Source of the DNA: Micromonospora zingiberis | GTDB taxonomy: Bacteria; Actinomycetota; Actinomycetes; Mycobacteriales; Micromonosporaceae | Assembly (NCBI RefSeq): GCF_004331455.1 | Contig: NZ_SJJR01000022.1 | Span: 1 to 64,000, forward strand | DNA: 64,000 nucleotides | Reading direction: 5' to 3' | Part shown: positions 25,472 through 56,434 of the stretch, one piece after another | How positions within the stretch are numbered: the stretch's first letter is position 1 | How the letters are laid out: the number at the start of each line of letters is the position of its first letter | Program-made: the position numbers and the translations under genes | Notes under the pieces: generated by a model | The model's input: only the letters and a program-made list of their open reading frames with translations | Told to the model about the DNA's origin: nothing | The model's database searches: none

Positions 25472-27397
25472 GTGCCTTCCGGCTTCGGTGAACTGACTGA
25501 TCAGGCGCACGACCTGGTTTCCGCTGGCGATCTCGCCGGCGCGCAACGGCTGCTCGCCGACGCGCTGACCGGCGCCGACCCGCGTCCGGCCAACGCGACA
25601 CCCGAGCTGGCCGAGGCGGCCAGCCTGCACGCCCGCGTGCTGGTCGCGCTCGGCGAGCCGCACTCGGCACGGGGCTGGGCCGCCTTCGCGTACGCCGCCA
25701 CCACCCGACTGCACGGCCGCGCCGACCCGCGTACGGTGGCCGCCGCCGCCACCCTGGCGGCGGTGCTGCACCGGGTCGGCAGCTGGTCCCGGGCCGCCCG
25801 GCTGTACCAGGAAGTCATCATCGAACTCACCGCGACCGACGGGCCCGAATCGCTCCGGGTGCTCGCCGCGCACGCCGACCTGGCCACCGTGGAGTACGCC
25901 CGAGGCCAGTGCCAGGTCGCCCGCGACCGCCTCCAGGACGCCTGGGAGCTACACCGCGAGGTGTACGGCGACGGCCACCCGAGCGGCATCAAGATGCTGG
26001 CCCGACTCGGCTCGATGCAACGCGACTGCGGACAGTTCAGCGAGGCCCACGACAACCTCGCCCTCGCCCGCGAACTGAGCCGCCAGCACCTGGCCCCGGA
26101 CGACCCGCTGACCGCGCAGGTGGCGGCGCTCGCCCGAGCCGCCGCCAACCCGGACCACGCCTGCGCCGACACCCCACCGGTGAGCAGCCAGGACCCGGTC
26201 GTACCGGCCGCCCGCATCCCGCCGCCCGGCGACGCCCCACCCGCACCACAGTGGCCGACCGACGCCCCGGCCAGCCCCGCCGCGATCCCCACCCAACCGA
26301 CCGACTCCGCCCCGACCTGGCCGACCGACTCCGCCCCGACCTGGCCGACCGACTCCGCCGCGACCTGGCCGACCGACTCCCCAAGCACCCAGGCCGACTG
26401 GCCGACCGACGCACCGGCAGCCCACCACGACTGGCCGGCAGACTCCCCGGCGGCCCAGGCCGACTGGCCGGCAGACTCCCCGGCAGCCCGGGCCGACTGG
26501 CCGGCGGAGGGCGAGGCGGCCGGTGCCGTCCGGCCCCAGGGCAGCTGGCCGGAGCCGGAGTGGCCGGCCGCCGAGGAACACCCCGTGGAGGGTTACCACC
26601 CCAGCCACGGCTACCACCCGGCCGGGCAGCCAGCGGCCGGCGCGGCATCGCCGGTCCCCACCCCGCGCCAACCGGCCGAGGGCCCGGCCGGACCACCGGA
26701 CGACTGGTGGACGGCACCCGCCACCGAGGAACCGGCCCCCTACCCCGACTACGGCACCACGACAGCGAACACCCCGGACCCGTACGCCGACCGGGCCACG
26801 GCGGTGCCGCCGAGCGTCGTGGGCCTGACCGGACCGGCGCCGCAGGCGCCCGGGGTCTACCGGCTGCGCCGGGTGGACGAACCGGAACAGTCCACGCCGT
26901 CGCGGCTGCTCCCGGTACCGGTGCGGCGGACCGCCCCGGCGCCCCGGCAGCCGAACCGGATGGTGCCGATCATCGCGGCCGGGGTGGTCGTGGTGCTGCT
27001 CGGTACCGCCGCGGTCATCGCCGGGATGTCCCGGCTCGACGGCGGCGGCAGCCCCGGCGCCCCCGCCACGAGCAACGCGCCGGGCAGTGCGCCGGCCACG
27101 ACGAACCCGGACACCTCCGTCTCGCCCGGCGCCCCACCCACCGGGCTCGCGCTGCGCGACAACCGGGACAGCGTGACGCTGAACTGGGAGTATCCGGCCG
27201 GAAGCGAGGGACCTGTGATCATTTCCGGTGGCCGGGCCGGGCAGCCGGCCAGCCCGTTCGCCGATCTGCCCGCCGGCACCGACAGCTTCGTCGTCTACGG
27301 GCTGAACCGTAGCCTCGACTACTGCTTCACCGTGGCCGTCGCCTGGTCCACCGACGTGGTGGCGCGCTCGGAACAGGTCTGCACCGACCGTCGCTGA
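25472..27397 (+). CDS. TPR protein with Trp-rich repeats, one TM segment and extracytoplasmic FN3-like domain
   Basis: 641 residues from GTG 25472. N-terminal ~220 residues are TPR-like (AGAQRLLADALTGADPRPAN, YQEVIIELTA, QLAP-type repeats). Residues ~270-360 are a low-complexity stretch with repeated WPTDS/WPADS units. One TM helix near 515-535 (MVPIIAAGVVVVLLGTAAVI), then a Ser/Thr/Pro linker and a C-terminal FN3-like domain (GLALRDNRDSVTLNWEYPAG; YGLNRSLDYCFTVAVAW). It probably links a cytoplasmic TPR platform with the cell exterior. Partner unknown. Confidence 0.8.
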   Translation: MPSGFGELTDQAHDLVSAGDLAGAQRLLADALTGADPRPANATPELAEAASLHARVLVALGEPHSARGWAAFAYAATTRLHGRADPRTVAAAATLAAVLHRVGSWSRAARLYQEVIIELTATDGPESLRVLAAHADLATVEYARGQCQVARDRLQDAWELHREVYGDGHPSGIKMLARLGSMQRDCGQFSEAHDNLALARELSRQHLAPDDPLTAQVAALARAAANPDHACADTPPVSSQDPVVPAARIPPPGDAPPAPQWPTDAPASPAAIPTQPTDSAPTWPTDSAPTWPTDSAATWPTDSPSTQADWPTDAPAAHHDWPADSPAAQADWPADSPAARADWPAEGEAAGAVRPQGSWPEPEWPAAEEHPVEGYHPSHGYHPAGQPAAGAASPVPTPRQPAEGPAGPPDDWWTAPATEEPAPYPDYGTTTANTPDPYADRATAVPPSVVGLTGPAPQAPGVYRLRRVDEPEQSTPSRLLPVPVRRTAPAPRQPNRMVPIIAAGVVVVLLGTAAVIAGMSRLDGGGSPGAPATSNAPGSAPATTNPDTSVSPGAPPTGLALRDNRDSVTLNWEYPAGSEGPVIISGGRAGQPASPFADLPAGTDSFVVYGLNRSLDYCFTVAVAWSTDVVARSEQVCTDRR

Positions 27398-36860: not shown

Positions 36861-36883
36861 CCAACCCGCGGCCCCTGCGGCCT

Positions 36884-37000
36884 GCGTCCGTCGGATAGCC
36901 GCTGCCATTGCGCTCTGCGTCCGTCGGGTGGCCGCTGCCATTGCGGCCCGCGTCCCTCGGGTGGCCGCTGCCGTTGCGGCCCGCGTCCGTCGGCGGTGAC
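36884..37000. repeat. 33-bp tandem repeat, 3.5 units
   Basis: Units begin GCGTCCGTCGG at 36884, 36917, 36950 and 36983 (partial). A 33-bp period keeps an open frame on the minus strand (11-residue DAGRNGSGHPT-type repeat), but no start or coding context supports translation. Intergenic between ECF sigma and mannanase genes. Confidence 0.75.
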
Positions 37001-37014
37001 ACCCTCCTGCGGTC

Positions 37015-40978: not shown

Positions 40979-41043
40979 GTTGACCAAGAGGTTTTGGCGT
41001 ACCAGACCCGCCTACCGCGACCAAAACCTCTTGATCAACGCGG
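40979..41043. repeat. inverted-repeat element (GATCAAGAGGTTT family), single copy
   Basis: TTGACCAAGAGGTTTTGG (40980-40997) pairs with CCAAAACCTCTTGATCAA (41021-41038), with a 23-nt loop. Three relatives lie at 56134-56362. Together they form a dispersed family of ~65-bp hairpins ending in CGCGG. Confidence 0.75.
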
Positions 41044-41868
41044 CGGGAGCGGGCGCGGCGGGAGCGGGCGCGGCGGGAGCGGGGGTGGCGGGAGCGGGGG
41101 TGGGGTTAGGGAGAGGGTGGTTTGGAGGGGGTGGTGGTCGGAGGCTTGGTGGGTGTGGGGGGTGCGGATGACCTGGGTGGTGAGGTGGTGGGTGGCGAGG
41201 GTGGGGGTGGCGAGCAGGTAGTCCAGGCGCATGTCGGAGAACTCGGCCCCGCCGTACCCGGTGGGCACGGTGGGACCGGCCGTCGCGCCGAGGTCGACCA
41301 GGCCGGCGGCGAGCAGCCGGGCCACCGCTCGGGTGTCCACTGTCCGGCCGTCGCGGCGCAGGTGCCGGCGACGGTACGCGGCGGGTAGCCGGGCGATCCG
41401 GTCGGCGTGCTCGGCGTACGGGTCGAGGGTGTTCAGGTCACCGGCGAGCAGTGCCAGGCCGTCGCCGGCCCGGCGCAGCGCGGCGCCCGCCCACCCGGCC
41501 TCGACCAGACGGCGTCGGCCGGAGTACGGGTGGAAGTGGGTGCTGAGCACGGTCAACGGACCGGCGGCGGTGCCGATCGTCACCAGTTGGGCGGCATGGT
41601 GGAACGGGCGGCGCACCGGTGCGGCGGCCAGCACCGGCCAGGATGGCCGGACCAGCACCGCGACCGACTGCCCGAACCAGGTGCCGGCCCGGTACGCCCG
41701 CAGGCCCACCCGGGCGGCGAAGCCGGTCACGTCCAGCCCGCGCAGTTCCTGCACGGCGAGCACGTCGGGACGCTGTTCGGCGACCACCCGGGCCAGCAGG
41801 TCACGCCGATCGGGGCCACCCCGGTCCTGGCCGCCGTTGCGGATGTTCCAGGTGACGATGCGCAGCAC
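41035..41868 (-). CDS. endonuclease/exonuclease/phosphatase family protein
   Basis: 277 residues. EEP fold: RIVTWNIRNGG (Asn), VLAVQEL (metal Glu), VLSTHFHPYSGRRR (His), LLAGDLNTLDP (Asp/Asn) and ASDHHPL (terminal Asp-His). Catalytic residues are all present. The last ~25 residues are a PPLPP/RPLPP repeat encoded by GGGAGCGGGCGCGG-type DNA repeats, and the stop falls in the inverted-repeat element, so the C-terminus is probably a repeat-derived extension. Could be a nuclease or phosphoesterase. Confidence 0.82.
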   Translation of the reverse strand: MLRIVTWNIRNGGQDRGGPDRRDLLARVVAEQRPDVLAVQELRGLDVTGFAARVGLRAYRAGTWFGQSVAVLVRPSWPVLAAAPVRRPFHHAAQLVTIGTAAGPLTVLSTHFHPYSGRRRLVEAGWAGAALRRAGDGLALLAGDLNTLDPYAEHADRIARLPAAYRRRHLRRDGRTVDTRAVARLLAAGLVDLGATAGPTVPTGYGGAEFSDMRLDYLLATPTLATHHLTTQVIRTPHTHQASDHHPLQTTLSLTPPPLPPPPLPPRPLPPRPLPPR

Positions 41869-43432: not shown

Positions 43433-44449
43433 CTACCGAGCGGTCATCTCGCCGGTGTCGAGCAGACCGTCGCGCGGCGCCTCCGGCTGCCAGCGGTCCG
43501 GCTGGGCGGGCTCCTGCACGCCGATGCGCACCGCCTCCAGTTGGGCCGCGAAGGCGAGCCCACCGAACAGCGCCATCCCGGTGAGGTTGGCCCACAGCAG
43601 CAACGCCATCATCCCGGTCAACGCGCCGTAGGTCTGCCCGAAATCCTCACTGAACCGGACGTACCCGGCCAGCAGCAGGCTGGTCAGCCACCACAACACG
43701 GTGGCGATGCCCGCCCCGAAGAACAGCCAGGACAGGCCGGGCTGGTGGCGTCGGGGTGCGTGCCGGAACAGCACCGCGACGGCGAGCACGGTCAGCCCGA
43801 AACTGAGCGGCCAGCGGACCAGGTCCCAGCCCACACTGGCGGCCCCGCCCCAGTCGTAGTGCCGCTGCACCGAGTCACCCATCGGCCCACCGCCGACCAG
43901 GATCAGGAAGCCGGCCAGTGCCGGTAGGCCGGCGATGACGGCCAGCACCGCCGCCCGCAGGTACTTCCGTAGCGCCGGCCGGTCCCGTTCGACGCCGTAG
44001 ATCCGGTTCGCGCCGCGTTCGATCTGGGCCATGGTGCTGGTCAACGCCGTCAGCCCGGTGACCAGACCCAGGGTGAGCGCCACCTCGCCGATGTCCTCGG
44101 CCCGTTCGGCGCCGGCACCGTCGCCGTCACCGAGCAGTTCGGCGACCACCTGCTCGCTGGCGCCGGGAGTCAACGCCAGTACGGTGTCGGCGACCACCTC
44201 GCCGCCCTCCGCCGCGCCCAGCTCGGCGATCAGCCCGGTCAACGCGATCAGGAACGGGACCACCGCCAAACAGAGCTGGAACGCGAAGGCCCGGGAATGA
44301 CTGAACCCGTCGCCGTAGCGGAACCGGGTGAAGGCGTCGCGCAGCAACTGCCAGCCGCCCTCCCGGCGCAGCGTCTGCCAGGCGTGGTCGGCGCAGAGCT
44401 GCTCCTCCGACATCAGCCGGGTCTCCGGCACCAGCTTGGTGCTACTCAC
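43433..44449 (-). CDS. YihY/BrkB family inner membrane protein
   Basis: 338 residues from GTG 44449. Six TM helices and signature segments: DGFSHSRAFAFQLCLAVVPF, SLAGLIAELGA-type helix, GANRIYGVERDRP and ATVLWWLTSLLLAGYVRFSE. Family function is unsettled, once mis-annotated as RNase BN. Its start overlaps by 8 nt a tiny ORF that belongs to the relay linking it to the upstream lipid kinase gene. Confidence 0.88.
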   Translation of the reverse strand: MSSTKLVPETRLMSEEQLCADHAWQTLRREGGWQLLRDAFTRFRYGDGFSHSRAFAFQLCLAVVPFLIALTGLIAELGAAEGGEVVADTVLALTPGASEQVVAELLGDGDGAGAERAEDIGEVALTLGLVTGLTALTSTMAQIERGANRIYGVERDRPALRKYLRAAVLAVIAGLPALAGFLILVGGGPMGDSVQRHYDWGGAASVGWDLVRWPLSFGLTVLAVAVLFRHAPRRHQPGLSWLFFGAGIATVLWWLTSLLLAGYVRFSEDFGQTYGALTGMMALLLWANLTGMALFGGLAFAAQLEAVRIGVQEPAQPDRWQPEAPRDGLLDTGEMTAR

Positions 44450-44616
44450 CGGAGTCGCTTTCGTTCACGACTGCGGGGCTCGCAAGCTCACTCCTCGCGC
44501 TCACCGAGCTGGCCTTTCGTTCACGACTGCGGGGCTCGCAAGCTCACTCCTCGCGCTCACCGAGCTGGCCTTTCGTTCGCGACTGCGGGGCTCGCAAGCT
44601 CACTCCTCGCGCTCAC
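44442..44616 (-). repeat. 56-bp tandem repeat = chain of three overlapping mini-ORFs
   Basis: Three units (boundaries 44461, 44517, 44573). Reading minus strand, mini-ORF 1 (44616-44557) and 2 (44560-44501) each encode 19 residues, as VSARSELASPAVVNERPAR; mini-ORF 3 (44504-44442) encodes 20. Each starts at the GTG of a GTGA that contains the previous stop. The first starts inside the end of the lipid kinase gene and the last ends inside the start of the YihY gene. A ribosome could pass from one gene to the next by repeated termination-reinitiation. Confidence 0.7.
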
Positions 44617-45613
44617 CGCGGGCCTCCTCGACCAGGTGCTCGCCTCGCTCGGCGGCAGCGGCCGCGTCCTCGGTGAGGTCGGGCGCCTGCTCCGGTCGGG
44701 GTACGCACAACCACAGCGCCCGCCGGTGGATCTGCGCCCGCAGGGTGCGCCCGGGCTCGATCAGGTCACCGTCCAGCTCGCGGGGCTGGGCCCGGTTGCT
44801 GGTGACCTCGATGCGCCGGGCCCGGAACTCCTCCATCCGGGGCACCCGGTCGCGGCGGCGCAACACCCCCCACCCGAGGGCGAGCCAGTGCCGCAGCGTA
44901 CGTGGGCTGAGCACCGCGACGTCGAAGTAGCCGTCGTCGGGTTCGGCGTCGGTGAGCAGGGTGACCCCGCCCTGGAGCCGGCCGACGTTGGCGACCAGCA
45001 CCGACCGGACCCGACGGCGCAACGGCGGCTGGTCGTCCAACCGGATCTCCACCCGCATCGGCCGGTCCCGCAGGTGTCGGACCGCGCCCACCACGTACGC
45101 CGGCCAGCCGATCCGCCGCTTGGTGGTCTCGCTGGTGGCGGCGAGCATCTGCGCGTCGAAACCCATGCCGGCCATCACCGCGAAGTGCTGCCCGTCCACC
45201 TCGCCGACGTCGAGCAGTCGCCGCCCACGCTCGACGGCCACCGCCAGCCCGGCCGCCAGGTCGGTGGAGAGTCCCAGGTTGGCCGCGAGCAGGTTGCCGG
45301 TGCCCTGCGGCAGCACGGCGAGCGTGGCTTCGGTGCCGACCAGCGCGCTGACACAGGCCCGCACGGTGCCGTCGCCGCCGCAGGCGAAGACCACCTCGGC
45401 GCCGGCCGCGATCGCCTGCTCGGTCTGGCCCCGGCCGGGGTCGTCGACGGTGGTCTCGTACCACAGCGGCTCGGCCCAGCCGGCGGCGGCGAGCGTGTCG
45501 CCGACGGTGCGCCGCAACGTCTCGGGATCGGCCACCTTGACCGGGTTGACCACCACCGCGCTGCGTAGCGATCCCGCCTGCCGTCCAGCTTCCACGGCGC
45601 CAGTGTGCGCCAT
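44600..45613 (-). CDS. diacylglycerol kinase-like lipid kinase (YegS/DagK family)
   Basis: 337 residues from ATG 45613. DAGK catalytic domain: VVNPVKVADPETLRRTVGDT, CGGDGTVRACVSALVG (GGDGT), LPQGTGNLLAANLGL (GTGN), then GMGFDAQMLAAT and RELDGDLIEPG (LDGE-like motif with Asp). It phosphorylates diacylglycerol or a related lipid. Followed by the mini-ORF relay and the YihY gene, with PAP2 phosphatase further downstream. Confidence 0.88.
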   Translation of the reverse strand: MAHTGAVEAGRQAGSLRSAVVVNPVKVADPETLRRTVGDTLAAAGWAEPLWYETTVDDPGRGQTEQAIAAGAEVVFACGGDGTVRACVSALVGTEATLAVLPQGTGNLLAANLGLSTDLAAGLAVAVERGRRLLDVGEVDGQHFAVMAGMGFDAQMLAATSETTKRRIGWPAYVVGAVRHLRDRPMRVEIRLDDQPPLRRRVRSVLVANVGRLQGGVTLLTDAEPDDGYFDVAVLSPRTLRHWLALGWGVLRRRDRVPRMEEFRARRIEVTSNRAQPRELDGDLIEPGRTLRAQIHRRALWLCVPRPEQAPDLTEDAAAAAERGEHLVEEARGEREE

Positions 45614-45804
45614 GGTGCGGGGTTCGGCGACCCGGCGTCGGGTGGGCAGGTTCACCCGCCGACGGCGTTTGAAATCGCGGCGGGCAGTTCCGGCGGGGTG
45701 CGCAGGTGCCTGGAGTGCCGTTGCTCCGATCGCGCCCCCGGGTGGCACCGCCGCGACTAGCCTCAGACGCAGGTCAGGCGCGACAGCTGCGGGGGTGAGG
45801 TCGG

Positions 45805-46635
45805 ATGGCCGCAGCCAGCGACGCGCCGGTGCTGGCCGGCATCGGTCCGGAGGACGCCCTGCCGGTGGTCCGGACCGCCGCGCGGGTGGCCGCCGCGCAC
45901 CGGCGCGGACTGCACCTGCTGCACGCGTTCAACTGGGCGGCGATGGACGCCCCGGCGGTCTCCGGGTCCCGGGCCGACGCCGAGCGGCTCATCGCCGAGG
46001 CCACCGAGGCGGCCCGCCTGAGCGAGCCGGACGTCCCCCTGACCACCGAGATCGTCGAGGGCCCGGCGGTGGCGAACCTCGTACGCAGGTCCGAGTCGGC
46101 CTTCCTGGTGGCCGTGGGTGACGGCGGGATGGCCCACTGCGACCGCTGCATCCCGGCGGACAGCCCCGCCGTGCAGGTGGCCGCCCGGGCCGAGTGCCCG
46201 GTGCTGGTCGCCCGCCGGGAACCACCGCCGCAGGGTCCGGTGCTGGTCGGGGTGGACGGCTCGACACCCGCCGAGATCGCACTGGCCTGGGCGTTCACCT
46301 GCGCGACCGAACACCGTTCCCGGCTGCTGGCCGTGTGGGTGGTCGACACGGACGCCGCGATCAAGCCAGCCACCGACCGGCTCCGCGAACTGGTCGCCCG
46401 GTACGGCGCCGGTCACCCCGACACCACCACCGAATGCCACGTCGTCTGCGGCGATCCCGGCGCGGTACTGGTCGACCAGTCCCGGTCGGCGCAGCTGACG
46501 GTGGTCGCCGCTCGCGGCGACGAGTCGTGGCGCGGCATGCTCGGCGCGGTCAGTCAGTCCCTGCTCTACCACTCCCCCTCGCCGGTGATCGTGGTGCGTG
46601 GCGTGTCCGACGTACCGGGTGCCGACGGGTCGTGA
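45805..46635 (+). CDS. tandem universal stress protein, first copy
   Basis: 276 residues with two UspA-like domains (about 5-135 and 142-268). ATP-loop motifs are degenerate (VAVGDGGMAHCDR in domain 1, AARGDESWRGMLGAVS in domain 2, against G-x2-G-x9-G-S/T), so nucleotide binding may be weak. Universal stress proteins of this type are induced by DevR under hypoxia in mycobacteria. First gene of the dormancy-like cluster. Confidence 0.85.
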   Translation: MAAASDAPVLAGIGPEDALPVVRTAARVAAAHRRGLHLLHAFNWAAMDAPAVSGSRADAERLIAEATEAARLSEPDVPLTTEIVEGPAVANLVRRSESAFLVAVGDGGMAHCDRCIPADSPAVQVAARAECPVLVARREPPPQGPVLVGVDGSTPAEIALAWAFTCATEHRSRLLAVWVVDTDAAIKPATDRLRELVARYGAGHPDTTTECHVVCGDPGAVLVDQSRSAQLTVVAARGDESWRGMLGAVSQSLLYHSPSPVIVVRGVSDVPGADGS

Positions 46636-46648
46636 CACCCGGGCGGGC

Positions 46649-46662
46649 GGGACCAATGACCC
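46649..46662. promoter_or_regulatory. DevR/DosR-like box upstream of phosphoketolase
   Basis: GGGACCAATGACCC, 89 bp before the phosphoketolase ATG. It agrees with the half-sites of the DosR motif (GGGAC, 4 nt, G(T/A)CCC). The dyad is imperfect. The presence of devS/devR and dormancy genes close by supports the call. Confidence 0.45.
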
Positions 46663-46750
46663 TGATCCACGGTCACCGATGCGGCCAAGCTGAACGAGGA
46701 AACCGCGTTGCGGATGCAGGATCCACCGAACCGCGAGAGGCTCACCCGGT

Positions 46751-49144
46751 ATGGACACCGCCCTGGACCTGAAGAGCACTCTGACCGATGACGAGTTGCG
46801 CCGGCTGGACGCCTACTGGCGGGCGGCGAACTACCTCACCGTCGGCCAGATCTACCTGCTCGACAATCCCCTGTTGCGCGAGCCGCTGGCCGCCGACCAC
46901 GTCAAGCCCCGGCTGCTCGGCCACTGGGGCACCTCCCCCGGCCTGAACCTGATCTACGCGCACCTGAACCGGGCCATCGTCGCCCGCGACCTGTCCGCGA
47001 TCTACCTCACCGGCCCCGGGCACGGCGGCCCGGCCCTGGTCGCGAACGCCTGGCTGGAGGGCACCTGGAGCGAGCGCTACCACGGCGTCGGCCGCGACGA
47101 GGCCGGCATGGCGCGGCTGTTCCGCCAGTTCTCCTTCCCCGGCGGCATCCCCAGCCACGTGGCGGCGGAGGTGCCGGGTTCGATCCACGAGGGCGGCGAG
47201 CTGGGGTACGCGCTCAGCCACGCCTACGGCGCGGCCTTCGACAACCCGGATCTGCTGGTCGCCTGCGTGATCGGCGACGGGGAGGCGGAAACCGGCCCGC
47301 TGGCCGGCAGTTGGCTGTCCAACGTCTTCCTCAACCCGGCCCGCGACGGCGCGGTGCTGCCCATCCTGCACCTCAACGGCTACAAGATCGCCAACCCGAC
47401 GGTACTGGACCGGATCCCCGAGTCCGACCTGCTCGACCTCATGCGCGGCAACGGCTACCAGCCGTACGTGGTGGCCGGTGACGAGCCCGCCGCCGTGCAC
47501 GAGCTGCTGGCCGCCACCCTCGACCGGGCGCTCGACGAGATCGCGGCGATCCAGCGTCGGGCCCGTTCCGGCGCGACCGTGGAACGCCCCCGGTGGCCGA
47601 TGATCATCCTGCGTACGCCGAAGGGCTGGACCGGTCCGGACGTGGTCGACGGCAAGCAGGTCGAGGGGACCTACCGCGCCCACCAGGTGCCGCTGTCGGA
47701 GGTCCGCACCAACCCGGCGCACCTGGCCGAACTGGAGCGCTGGCTGCGCAGCTACCGGCCGGAGGAGCTGTTCGACGCCACCGGCGCCCCGGTCGCCGAA
47801 CTGGTCGCGCTGCCGCCCCGGGGTGACCGACGGATGAGCGCCAACCCGGTGGCCAACGGTGGGCAGGTGCTGCGTGACCTCGTCCTGCCGGACTTCGGGG
47901 ACTACGCCGTCGAGGTGCCCCGGCCCGGCGCGACGGTCACCGGCGCCACCGGCGAGTTGGGCAAGTGGGTCCGCGACGTGATCGCCGCCAACCCGCAGAG
48001 CTTCCGCCTGTTCGGCCCGGACGAGGTCGCCTCCAACCGGCTCCAGGCCGCCTTCGAGGTCACCGACCGCGCCTGGATGGCCGGCACCGTACCCGGCGAC
48101 GACCACCTCGCCCCCGACGGGCGGGTGATGGAGGTCCTCTCCGAACACCTCTGCCAGGGCTGGCTGGAGGGCTACCTGCTGACCGGCCGGCACGGCATCT
48201 TCACCAGCTACGAGGCGTTCATCCACATCGTCGACTCGATGGTCAACCAGCACGCCAAGTGGTTGAAGGTGACCCGGGGCATTCCCTGGCGGATGCCGGT
48301 GGCGTCGCTGAACTACCTGCTCTCCAGCCACGTCTGGCGGCAGGACCACAACGGCTTCTCGCACCAGGACCCGGGCTTCATCGACCACGTGATGAACAAG
48401 AAGGCCGAGGTGGTCCGGGTCTATCTGCCGCCGGACGCCAACACCCTGCTCTCCACCATGGACCACTGCCTGCGCAGCCGGCACTACATCAACGTGGTGG
48501 TGGCCGGTAAGCAGGCCGCACCGAACTGGTTGACCATGGAGGAGGCCATCCAGCACTGCCGGCGCGGCCTGGGCATCTGGGACTGGGCCAGCACCGACGA
48601 CAGCGACGAGCCGGACGTGGTGCTCGCCTGCGCCGGCGACGTACCGACGCTGGAGACCCTGGCGGCGGCCGACCTGCTGCGCCAGCACCTACCCGAACTC
48701 AAGGTACGAGTGATCAACGTGGTGGACCTGATGCGGCTACAGCCGCCCAGCGAGCACCCGCACGGCCTGCCGGACAACGAGTTCGACACCCTCTTCACCC
48801 GCGACAAGCCGATCATCTTCGCCTATCACGGCTACCCGTGGCTGATCCACCGGCTCACCTACCGCCGCACCAACCACGGCAACCTGCACGTACGCGGATA
48901 CAAGGAGGAGGGCACCACCACCACGCCCTTCGACATGGTGATGCTCAACGACCTGGACCGCTTCCACCTGGTGATCGACGTGATCGACCGGGTGCCCGGG
49001 CTGGCCTCCCGCGCGGCGCACCTGCGGCAGGAGATGACTGACGCCCGGCAGTCCTGCCGCGACTACACCCGCCGGTACGGCGAGGACGATCCCCGGGTCG
49101 CCGAATGGCGCTGGGTCCGCGAAACCGACCAGACCAACCCATAA
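46751..49144 (+). CDS. xfp: phosphoketolase (Xfp family)
   Basis: 797 residues, normal for the family. Cleaves xylulose 5-phosphate and/or fructose 6-phosphate with phosphate to acetyl phosphate. ThDP-enzyme motifs: [59 protein letters not shown] with [25 protein letters not shown], and [13 protein letters not shown] with [20 protein letters not shown] later. All typical. In this cluster it may provide fermentative ATP under low oxygen. Followed by the mini-ORF relay into the second stress protein. Confidence 0.95.
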
Positions 49145-49320
49145 CGGAGCGGCGTCATGAGCGAGCGTCTGCGAGCGAATCATCAGCTCAGTGCGTCCGT
49201 GCCTCATGGCGGCGCGCAGCGAAGCGGAGCGGCGTCATGAGCGAGCGTCTGCGAGCGAATCATCAGCTCAGTGCGCCCGTGCCTCATGGCGGCGCGCAGC
49301 GAAGCGGAGCGGTGTCATGA
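49145..49320 (+). repeat. 80-bp tandem repeat = two overlapping mini-ORFs leading into usp
   Basis: Units start CGGAGCGGCGTCATGA at 49145, 49225 and (partial) 49305. Each has GGAG seven bases before an ATG and encodes 27 residues beginning MSERLRANHQ and ending in a TGA overlapping the next ATG (ATGA). Mini-ORFs are 49157-49240 and 49237-49320; the last stop overlaps the true usp ATG at 49317. The 80-bp unit equals the 84-nt ORF minus the 4-nt overlap. Confidence 0.7.
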
Positions 49321-50192
49321 GTGACGGGCCGATCCTGGTGGGTTACGACGGTTCGCCGGACGCGGCGGCGGCCCTGGACTGGGCGCTGACGCAGGCCAAC
49401 CGAGACGGCCGGGCGGTGCGGCTGGCGTACATCTTCGAATGGCTCACGGTGGCCGGCTGGCTCGGGCCCGGCATGACGCCCGGGATGTGGCCGGACGAGC
49501 AGGCCCGGCAGCAGGTCGAGGAGTTGGTACGCAAGGCGGCGGCCGACGCCGCCGCCGCGCACCCCGACCTGACGGTCAGCGGCGAGGTACTCGACGGCCC
49601 ACCCGCCCTGGTGTTGGAGGAGTGCTCCACCGAGGCCGGCCTGCTGGTGCTGGGCAGCCGTGGGCACGGCGGCTTCGCCGGCCTGCTCGCCGGCTCGACC
49701 GCCGTCACCGTCTCCGCGCACGCGCACTGCCCGGTGGTGGTGGTCCGGCGCGAGACCGCCGGCCGTAACCGGGCCGGAGCTGTCGCGGTCGGCGTGGACG
49801 GCTCGGAGCAGTCGCTGCTGGCGCTCGGCTTCGCCGTCGAGCAAGCGGCGCTGCGCGAGGTGCCGCTGCGCGTGCTGCGGGCCTGGCAGCCCCAGCGGGA
49901 TCAGTGGAACCTCACCGGCGAACAGGCCCGCGACGCGGCGATCGCCGATCAGCGCACCGACCTGGACGAGCCGCTACGCCGCTGGCAGGAAGCCTTTCCC
50001 GACGTCGAGACAAGTGTCGAGACGGCCCCCGCCGCAGCCGCCGGGCTGTTGATCGACGCCAGCCGCGACGCACAGCTCATGGTGGTCGGCACCCGGGGCC
50101 GCGGTGGGCTACGCGGCATGCTGCTCGGCTCGGTCAGCCAACAACTCATCCAACACGCCCACTGCCCGGTGGCCGTGGTCCGGGAACGCTGA
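49317..50192 (+). CDS. tandem universal stress protein, second copy
   Basis: 291 residues from ATG 49317; upstream frames belong to the repeats. Two UspA domains (about 5-145 and 152-291), each with an intact ATP loop: GSRGHGGFAGLLAGSTA and GTRGRGGLRGMLLGSVS. In contrast to the first copy it should bind ATP. Translationally coupled to the mini-ORF chain behind the phosphoketolase gene. Confidence 0.9.
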   Translation: MSDGPILVGYDGSPDAAAALDWALTQANRDGRAVRLAYIFEWLTVAGWLGPGMTPGMWPDEQARQQVEELVRKAAADAAAAHPDLTVSGEVLDGPPALVLEECSTEAGLLVLGSRGHGGFAGLLAGSTAVTVSAHAHCPVVVVRRETAGRNRAGAVAVGVDGSEQSLLALGFAVEQAALREVPLRVLRAWQPQRDQWNLTGEQARDAAIADQRTDLDEPLRRWQEAFPDVETSVETAPAAAAGLLIDASRDAQLMVVGTRGRGGLRGMLLGSVSQQLIQHAHCPVAVVRER

Positions 50193-50214
50193 GCGCCCGC
50201 CCCGCCGTCGATCT

Positions 50215-52143
50215 CTAGGTCGGCGGGGCGGGGCCGGCGCGCGGGCCGCCGTGCAGGGCGCGCAGCGCGTTGAGGATCACCAGTACGTCGATGCCCTCCT
50301 GGAGGAAGGCGCCGGCCACCGGGGGCAGCCGGCCGGCCGCCGCGAACCCCATCGCCAGGACGGCCAGCCCCATCCCGACGGTGGCGCTCTGCACGGCGAT
50401 CCGGCGGGCGTACCGGGCGACCTCGACCGCGTCGGCGAGCGGATCGAGCCGGTCGACAGTGAGTACGGCGTCGGCCACGTCGGCGGAGGCGGTCGCCCCG
50501 GTGGCACCCATCGCCACCCCGACATGCGCCTCCGCCAGCGCCGGTGCGTCGTTCACCCCGTCACCGACCATCACCGTGACCGCCCGGTCGGCCTCGGCCC
50601 GCACCCGGGAAACCTTCTCCTGCGGGGTGCACCGGGCCAGCACGTCGTCCACCCCCACCGCGTCGGCCACCCGCCGGGCGGTGTCCGGCCGGTCGCCGGT
50701 GACCATCACGATCCGGGTCAGGCCGGCCGCGCGCAGCCGCTGCACCGCGCGGCGGGCGTCGGGGCGTACCGGATCCTCCAGCAGGACCGCGCCGAGCGGC
50801 CCGGCGTCGTCGGCCACCCAGACCACGGAGTGTCCGGGCTGTTCGACGCGGGAGCGGGCCCACTGCGGCGGCTCACCGGTGAGCTGACCGACCCGGATCC
50901 GCCGCCCGTCGACCCGGCCGCTCACCCCCCGGCCCGGTTCCTCGGTCACCTCCGTCGGCGTGGTCAGCCGCAGTCCCCGGTCACCGGCCTGCCCGACCAG
51001 CGCCGCGGCCAGCACGTGCGGGGACAGTTGCTCCACCGACGCGGCCAGCCGCAACACCTCGTCAGGGTCGCCGCCGGGGGCGACGACGGTCCCGGCCACC
51101 CGGGGACGACCGGCGGTGAGCGTGCCGGTCTTGTCCACCAGCAGGGTACGAACCCGGCCCAGCACCTCCAGCGAACCGCCGTCGCGCACCAGTACCCCCC
51201 GGCGGGCCACCCGCGACAGCCCGGAGACGATGGCGATCGGGGTGGCCAGCAGCAGCGGGCACGGGGTGGCCACCACCAGCACCGCCACCGCGCGGATGAA
51301 GTCGCCGGACAACACCCAGCCCAGCCCGGCCAGCACCAGCGTGAACGGCACGAAGGCCGCCGCGTACCGGTCGGCCAGTCGTACGGTCGGCGCCTTGCGG
51401 GCGGTCGCCTCCTCGGCCAGCCGGACGATGCCCGCGTACGTGCTGCGCTGCGCGCTCTCGGTGGCCCGTAGTCCGAACCCGGCGCCGGCGTTGATCACGC
51501 CGCTGGCCACCGCCGCGCCGGCCCCCTTATCGACGAGCCGGGACTCCCCGGTCACCACCGACTCGTCCAGTGTCGCGGGTGCCTCGGTGACCCCGTCGAC
51601 GGCGACCACGTCACCCGGGCCGACCAGCAGCCGGTCCCCCACCGCCACCCGGTCCACCGGCACCACCTCGACCCCACCGTCGGCGGTGCGCCGCCGCGCG
51701 GTCCGGGGCGCCCGCTCCAGCAGGGCCCGCAGGTCACGGGTCGCCCGGCGCTGCGCGTACGCCTCCAGCGTGCGTCCGGTGGCCAGCATCACCGCGATCA
51801 CCGCGCCGGCCAGGTACTCCCCGACGCCGAGCGCACCGGCCAGCGCCAGGACCGCGATGACGTCCACGCCGAACCGGCGCCGCCACAGGTCGCGCAGCAC
51901 GGAGACGGCGGCCGGCAGCAACGCGGTCAGGGTGACCGCCGCCCACACCAGGTCGGCCGCGCCGCGCCGCCCGGACAGCCACAGCCCCGCCCCGACCAGC
52001 ACCAGCGCGGTCAGCCCGGTCAGCGGGACCCACAGCCCCCAGCGCAGGCCCCGCCGACCGGGCGGGCCACGTCGCGTCGGCTGCTCCGGTAGGCACTCGC
52101 CCGCGCCGCGCCCCGGCTCTGCGGTCTCCGCCTGCGCCCCCAC
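50215..52143 (-). CDS. heavy-metal translocating P1B-type ATPase with TPC motif
   Basis: 642 residues. Motifs: VTGESRLVDKG (TGES), VATPCPLLLATP, DKTGTLTAGR (phosphorylated Asp), SPHVLAAAL (in place of HP), TGDRPDTARRVA and GDGVNDAPALAEA. There is no N-terminal HMA domain. The membrane motif is TPC instead of CPC (Cu+) or SPC (Co2+), as in the P1B-5 group linked to Ni/Fe. Convergent with the usp gene; in mycobacteria a P-type ATPase (CtpF) is also in the DosR regulon. Confidence 0.9.
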   Translation of the reverse strand: MGAQAETAEPGRGAGECLPEQPTRRGPPGRRGLRWGLWVPLTGLTALVLVGAGLWLSGRRGAADLVWAAVTLTALLPAAVSVLRDLWRRRFGVDVIAVLALAGALGVGEYLAGAVIAVMLATGRTLEAYAQRRATRDLRALLERAPRTARRRTADGGVEVVPVDRVAVGDRLLVGPGDVVAVDGVTEAPATLDESVVTGESRLVDKGAGAAVASGVINAGAGFGLRATESAQRSTYAGIVRLAEEATARKAPTVRLADRYAAAFVPFTLVLAGLGWVLSGDFIRAVAVLVVATPCPLLLATPIAIVSGLSRVARRGVLVRDGGSLEVLGRVRTLLVDKTGTLTAGRPRVAGTVVAPGGDPDEVLRLAASVEQLSPHVLAAALVGQAGDRGLRLTTPTEVTEEPGRGVSGRVDGRRIRVGQLTGEPPQWARSRVEQPGHSVVWVADDAGPLGAVLLEDPVRPDARRAVQRLRAAGLTRIVMVTGDRPDTARRVADAVGVDDVLARCTPQEKVSRVRAEADRAVTVMVGDGVNDAPALAEAHVGVAMGATGATASADVADAVLTVDRLDPLADAVEVARYARRIAVQSATVGMGLAVLAMGFAAAGRLPPVAGAFLQEGIDVLVILNALRALHGGPRAGPAPPT

Positions 52144-56133: not shown

Positions 56134-56362
56134 GTTGATCAAGAGGTTTACGTCAACCTTTGGCCGAACCCCGACCCAAACCTCTTGATCACCGCGGGCC
56201 GACCCACCCGCCCGGGTTGATCAAGAAGTTTGCGTCGGCCTTCGCGCGGCACCCCGACGCAAACCTCTTGATCAACGCGGGCCTTGGGGCTTTGTGGTTG
56301 ATCAAGAGGTTTGGGTCGGGATCTGGGTGGAGTCGCGACCAAAGGGTCTTGATCAACGCGGG
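56134..56362. repeat. three tandem inverted-repeat elements (GATCAAGAGGTTT family)
   Basis: Three hairpins of 64-66 bp at about 56134-56197, 56216-56280 and 56297-56362. Each opens with GTTGATCAAGA(G/A)GTTT and closes with CTCTTGATCA(A/C)CGCGG or similar; loops differ, and the inner stem bases co-vary to keep pairing (GCGTCG with CGACGC in copy 2). A fourth copy is at 40979. Looks like a REP/MITE-type family or tandem terminators after devR. The GC-rich tail to 56480 holds short GGACAAGGCGGGGC repeats. Confidence 0.75.
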
Positions 56363-56434
56363 CCGGACAAGGCGGGGCGGACAAGGCGGGGCGGACAAGG
56401 GGGGGTGGGGTGGCGCGGGGGGCCTGGGGAGGTC

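Follow-up and report, generated by a model that had tools for sequence, protein, structure and literature searches.

Adjacent genes whose stop and start codons overlap as ATGA can be coupled by termination-reinitiation, with a Shine-Dalgarno (SD) site preceding the second start, as described by Huber et al. 2019 (PMC6728339). Translation of the upstream gene is needed, and in one variant presented there the reason is a structure that masks the second start. Leader genes near structural genes, also in Actinobacteria, were described by Korolev et al. 2016 (PMC4833913), who proposed that reinitiation raises translation. In Mycobacterium tuberculosis, uORFs associated with B12 riboswitches are reported to have their translation linked to the downstream gene (PMC11260477). 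Rickettsia palindromic elements (RPEs) and other coding MITEs are reported to be fused in frame within proteins, the RPEs with a conserved peptide (PMC10969869, PMC2229807).

The repeat described here, of about 80 bp, lies between a phosphoketolase gene (xfp) and a universal stress protein gene (usp) in a 64,000-nucleotide stretch of the Micromonospora zingiberis genome (the window). REP/RAYT and IS200/IS605-derived elements are short palindromic repeats with target-specific insertion; the present repeat differs from them in its placement at gene starts and in the absence of the Y1 transposase from three genomes that carry it (the window genome, G000, as well as G004 and G006). Like the ATGA-coupled gene pairs, the repeat contains a stop/start overlap and an SD site before the second start, but it is unlike those adjacent pairs in being a dispersed element that supplies a mini-ORF and a new start at unrelated genes (PMC6728339). 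It resembles the leader genes in that a short ORF lies just ahead of a gene and would hand the ribosome on, no stable peptide being assumed. The leader genes, however, do not overlap the structural gene and show a peak at 10-11 bp, whereas the repeats overlap, and the accessible text describes no repeat family or insertion for them (PMC4833913). As with RPEs and coding MITEs, small dispersed repeats leave genes readable after insertion, although the usual outcome here is a separate mini-ORF with an overlap and in-frame fusion is the minority, in contrast to the fusions reported there (PMC10969869, PMC2229807). The M. tuberculosis case is reported for two riboswitch loci and not a dispersed repeat (PMC11260477). 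Within the literature covered, which mostly excludes subscription journals, we found no published description of start-codon repeats that relay by overlap. The repeats, which sit on the start codons of unrelated genes, look like mobile sequences of a little-recognized kind, which respect how genes are read.

Tandem Repeats Finder placed the array at 49145-49321, with a period of 80, 2.2 copies, and 97% matches; the stop codon of the phosphoketolase gene occupies 49142-49144. The TGA of unit 1 (49238-49240) overlaps the ATG of unit 2 at 49237, and the TGA of unit 2 overlaps the ATG of usp at 49317 (Table 1). A sequence-only reading had described 80-bp tandem units with a GGAG site, an ATG, 27 codons, and ATGA overlaps that lead into usp, and this description was exact to the base. 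The usp start at 49317 is supported because congener usp ORFs, as read from the DNA, begin only a few residues ahead of the same shared (I/V)LVGYDGS-type stretch. The overlap of the stop of one ORF with the start of the next, which defines ATGA-coupled pairs, is present in the window units and in most copies of the family examined. The first mini-ORF matched no Pfam or NCBIfam family. No Rfam match above the gathering score was found in 44000-50300 at a permissive threshold; the two sub-gathering matches in this interval were far below the cut-off and neither fell on the repeats. Plasmid or phage carriage of the 80-bp element was rejected as the plasmid and phage collections gave no match to window positions 49145-49330 at E 1e-3. 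Further tandem repeats of the window, with periods of 14-66 bases, lie at 26297-26521, 36874-37012, 41039-41098, and 56354-56405.

Table 1. Features of the xfp-usp junction and of the second repeat family in the window.
Feature	Position	Strand	Basis
phosphoketolase gene (xfp), upstream partner	46751..49144	+	Pfam XFP_N, XFP, XFP_C; NCBIfam phosphoketolase
unit 1 GGAG, SD-like, flanks first start	49146..49149	+	sequence
unit 1 mini-ORF, ATG 49157, 27 codons + TGA	49157..49240	+	sequence
possible hairpin over second start, CTCATGGCGGCGC / GCGGCGTCATGAG, 13-nt loop, one G.G mismatch	49203..49241	+	sequence; family-wide pairing
unit 2 GGAG, SD-like, at hairpin loop edge	49226..49229	+	sequence
unit 2 mini-ORF, 27 codons + TGA	49237..49320	+	sequence
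possible hairpin over usp start codon, layout as at 49203..49241	49283..49321	+	sequence; family-wide pairing
usp GGAG, SD-like	49306..49309	+	sequence
universal stress protein gene (usp), downstream partner	49317..50192	+	Pfam Usp; start backed by congeners
second family, 56-bp units, 19-codon GTG mini-ORFs joined by GTGA	44458..44618	-	Tandem Repeats Finder; sequence

The 80-bp element is dispersed well beyond this junction. A DNA search of the window genome, a draft assembly of 6.5 Mb in 45 contigs, returned 18 copies at E below 1e-8, and a covariance model built from 20 of the genome's own copies gave 43 matches at E up to 1, 31 of them at E up to 1e-3. Every one of 24 congeners carries the element, with at least 1-94 matches per genome (per-genome match figures are lower bounds for both repeat families discussed here). 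The sequence-only reading had placed kin sequences, scattered, in Micromonosporaceae genomes, and this was borne out: the element occurs in at least 105 of 150 genomes and 31 of 44 genera of the family sample, and it has relatives beyond the family, with at least 37 of 394 genomes and 12 of 137 genera (own genus included) in a class sample at E up to 1e-5. Of 87 stretches from a pattern scan of named genomes, 80 were retrieved; Micromonospora predominates among them, and the other carriers are Verrucosispora, Virgisporangium, Actinocatenispora, Pseudonocardia, and a Nocardioides MAG. The loci inspected (20 in congeners, L061 and L065 left out, 18 in further genera of the family, and 9 in families elsewhere in the class) were the best-scoring ones and no random sample; all of them relay into the next ORF by ATGA or GTGA after 26-27 codons.

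The copies are placed on gene starts. We classified 145 of the 155 matches at E up to 1e-3 in three genomes (31/31 in G000, 86/92 in G004, and 28/32 in G006); most of the remaining ten are tandem neighbors, and four of the ten are visible in the comparison of orthologous loci given below. By stop/start overlap, 133 of the 145 relay into a long or cut-off ORF, including six whose last ORF ends at 40-56 codons where the stretch stops. At the beginning of the last ORF, third-position G+C reaches at least 0.8 in 131 of these 133 cases. The remaining 12 consist of four that read in frame into a long ORF, two that relay once and then stop, and six that are startless at the aligned end; of these six, two relay when read from a start that lies 11 or 20 bases inward, and four lack the first start. 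The census model spans both ends of the element and thus favors intact copies, whereas a second set, picked in named genomes by 28 bases of the 5' end and uncut by contig ends, is free of that bias at the 3' end. In this set, 81 of 87 copies relay (five with a last ORF cut at 11-45 codons by the end of the stretch), five read in frame into a long ORF, and one has its stop a few bases into the next ORF. By comparison, at rTGAG sites that belong to no element, a chain into a long ORF was seen in 152 of 1345 cases. A 12-nt core has 53 exact matches in the three genomes, 52 inside model matches and one adjoining such a match, in a shortened unit ahead of it; the reversed pattern has none. Copies placed without regard to gene starts or overlap would have spoken against the relay, and the genome-wide positions are the opposite, closely tied to both.

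The genes that follow are diverse: ten downstream proteins were scanned and comprise TrpA, GpsA, a thiolase, a fumarase, a glycosyl hydrolase, a glycosyltransferase, three permease types, and one protein that gave no match. In 47 of 90 arrays, an upstream stop already overlaps the first start of the array; for gene stops on the same contigs, which were called crudely, the figure is 65 of 427. Six of the 90 arrays have a -10-like hexamer and no SD site before the first start, and these target starts are possibly leaderless. Separately, a TAGGCT/TAGGGT/TAGATT-like hexamer is seen 7-8 bases ahead of the first ATG at L031, L067, L068, L073, L083, L072, and L078, and its presence in these left flanks suggests that the native gene was leaderless.

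Orthologous starts in related genomes vary in occupancy. When 12 loci of the window genome were compared with ten congeners, the orthologous starts were filled in 10 of 70 cases and empty in 60 of 70, counts made without a tree, so that some empty sites may be losses. This presence and absence fits the proposal of the sequence-only reading that the repeat may be a mobile module, and the module would move by insertion. The element is short, multi-copy, dispersed, and variable in presence between related genomes, as MITEs are; terminal inverted repeats, another hallmark of MITEs, were not found in it. Its ends are direct repeats (rTGAG...rTGAG), and a palindrome occupies the 3' half. When filled and empty sites are compared, the flank on the left looks native as far as rTGAG, and the right start seems to arrive with the element because some pairs have a native GTG and a right ATG. 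As to a target-site duplication, rTGAG flanks both sides, and copy-specific likeness at -1 to -6 is weak (single-position p 0.004-0.04, uncorrected), short of a clean duplication. Two loci of G001 that were counted as empty, L266 (the trpB-trpA junction) and L276 (the site of L041), contain short element remnants that appear to extend the downstream gene in frame at its N terminus. L155 and L156 are examples of copies that likewise read as N-terminal extensions, which some copies appear to become.

A second family, of 56-bp units, shows the same stop/start geometry. It has at least 15-67 matches in each of 25 genomes. Among 28 evaluated copies of the window genome (30 fetched), 19 relay, four are in frame, one is startless, and one does not relay; the other three are the window array, whose last unit runs to a TAG a few bases past the start of the next ORF, for which we infer a start at GTG 44449 on the minus strand. 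At congener loci (19 evaluated of 23 fetched), 16 relay, one is in frame, and two have their stop a few bases into the next ORF. The 56-bp and 80-bp units show no likeness beyond chance (local alignment score 17; shuffles have a mean of 16.5 and 42% reach 17), and common ancestry of the two families therefore finds no support in this comparison. The earlier claim of two independent repeats with one geometry is thus upheld, even at the same junction in different species: among 24 congeners, the xfp-usp junction holds the 80-bp element in two, the 56-bp family in five others, and neither in 17. Arrays of the 56-bp family with a 55-bp spacing also lie at extreme contig ends of G000 (C30:24-118 and C12:521878-522082) and are probably one array that broke the assembly.

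Within the 80-bp family, the frame is kept and the peptide is not. Of 139 matches with both starts, 130 are in relay phase without a stop, four are in fusion phase, and five are in the third phase, three of which regain a stop/start overlap nearby. Relay phase is kept in 37 of 46 length variants, four of the other nine being in fusion phase, although the copies are related and these counts are partly non-independent. When a 71-nt subfamily is counted once, the relay phase is found in 18 of 27 (p = 4e-4 for an expectation of one third), and by distinct lengths alone, 9 are in relay phase and 8 are not. We substituted this phase analysis of all matches for in-frame stop counts on 87 relay copies, which we no longer use as evidence, an open frame having been the criterion by which the copies were selected. 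The 87 distinct 27-codon copies encode 86 peptides, with no excess at the third codon position; consensus mismatch is 0.20/0.25/0.25 at codon positions 1/2/3. In five of 20 aligned own copies, a compensated -1/+1 shift reads the core in another frame and restores the phase at the end. Neither a conserved encoded peptide, as in RPE-like repeats, nor conserved regulatory codons or a peptide of the attenuator leader type were found in the family. These patterns suggest that the passage of the ribosome may matter and the peptide may not, and that the frame may be maintained by selection for coupling. At one Pseudonocardia MAG locus (L169), the 5' half is represented by three pieces of 33 nt in tandem, which continue in frame into a gene.

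The 3' half of the element can form the hairpin CTCATG.CGGCAC / GTGCCG.CATGAG, which pairs the new start codon and whose loop holds GGAGCGAAGCGGA. Folding of a 196-nt stretch with the window array was no better than that of shuffles (z 0.37), and the claim of structure therefore rests on this start-codon hairpin. Across 184 distinct copies, the six inner pairs are formed in 85.5% of cells, as compared to 78.7% with shuffled partners (largest 80.6%), a comparison that overstates covariation because the copies are related, and to 22-54% with slid partners. In an RNAalifold analysis of 20 copies, covariation contributes little (-0.85 of -11.24 kcal/mol); the outer pairs cannot show covariation because they include the nearly invariant start. 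For the start codon, predicted pairing amounts to 0.75; it is 0.43 when the upstream sequence is shuffled and 0.35 for the first starts of these arrays (n = 90). Part of the hairpin (the outer arm) is missing from some copies that retain the ORF. In silico, the hairpin may mask the second start in the 80-bp family.

Our current hypothesis, which we consider probable, is that a dispersed module of about 80 bp settles on native start codons and relays ribosomes through a mini-ORF to a new, hairpin-masked start. The module, presumably mobile, would land on a native start codon within rTGAG(C/T), which would then open a mini-ORF of about 27 codons. At its 3' end the module would provide the gene with a new start, ATGAG, together with a new SD site, and the TGA of the mini-ORF would overlap this start. 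The hairpin would pair this start codon and border its SD site, and the gene would thus depend mainly on ribosomes that have finished the mini-ORF, opened the hairpin, and reinitiated at ATGA. Tandem copies would lengthen the relay. Translation would accordingly be coupled in the cell, and the module would spare that coupling where it inserts.

Other explanations share part of this evidence. GGAG or GAGG precedes the terminal start in nearly all of 98 copies by column frequencies, and the element could be a harmless passenger whose own SD site initiates the gene directly, the mini-ORF being incidental. An incidental ORF should lose its frame, yet the relay phase persists in 37 of the 46 length variants and four of the nine off-phase variants read in frame into the gene, and predictions show the new start as paired; we regard the passenger explanation as unlikely. 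A regulatory leader peptide (attenuator or sensor) would also lie immediately 5' of a gene, as the mini-ORF does, with a possible hairpin over the start. Its amino acids would be important, however, and the 86 peptides of 87 copies, the lack of a third-position excess, the core read in two different frames, the diversity of the ten scanned genes, and the absence of an Rfam match above threshold around the window array make this very improbable. Chance or an assembly artifact could be suspected in a draft of 45 contigs, but the same design recurs in many named species and in genomes assembled as one contig, and we give this explanation next to no weight.

The hairpin could instead serve DNA transposition of a REP or IS200/IS605-like, TGAG-recognizing element, with translation merely constraining the survivors. 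Its inner positions covary, and several filled/empty pairs keep the native left rTGAG while the right start seems to be element-borne. Target-specific single-strand insertion keeps the native left flank and brings the right end with the element. The Y1 transposase PF01797, however, is present in only 8 of the 25 genomes searched and absent from G000, G004, and G006, although G004 and G006 have 99 and 35 element matches, and an IS200/IS605 or REP mobilizer was rejected on this basis; G015, with 33 copies, does have one PF01797 match. Transposition as the role of the hairpin is, in our assessment, unlikely, and it is compatible with the relay. G013 has eight PF01797 matches, four of them at contig starts, and only 11 element matches.

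A broader proposal extends the relay to a class of mobile sequences that comprises at least two unrelated families (80-bp and 56-bp) and has the start codon rTGAG as its insertion target. The native start would be taken over for a throw-away ORF, the gene would depend on hand-over at a hairpin-masked ATGA, and the mobilizer might recognize initiation sites by a route not described so far. We advance this proposal tentatively, as a possibility that falls short of being probable. If it were true, insertion would be tolerated in core metabolic genes, and a decaying element would leave N-terminal extensions behind. If the relay is true, the 80-bp repeat would be a class-wide element defined by its place in translation, one that keeps to start codons, gene direction, and phase and ignores the peptide. 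Its tandem copies, phase variants, and empty sites in sister species would offer natural replicates for the study of reinitiation and hairpin masking, and the start codons and N-termini of the affected genes would easily be miscalled in annotation.
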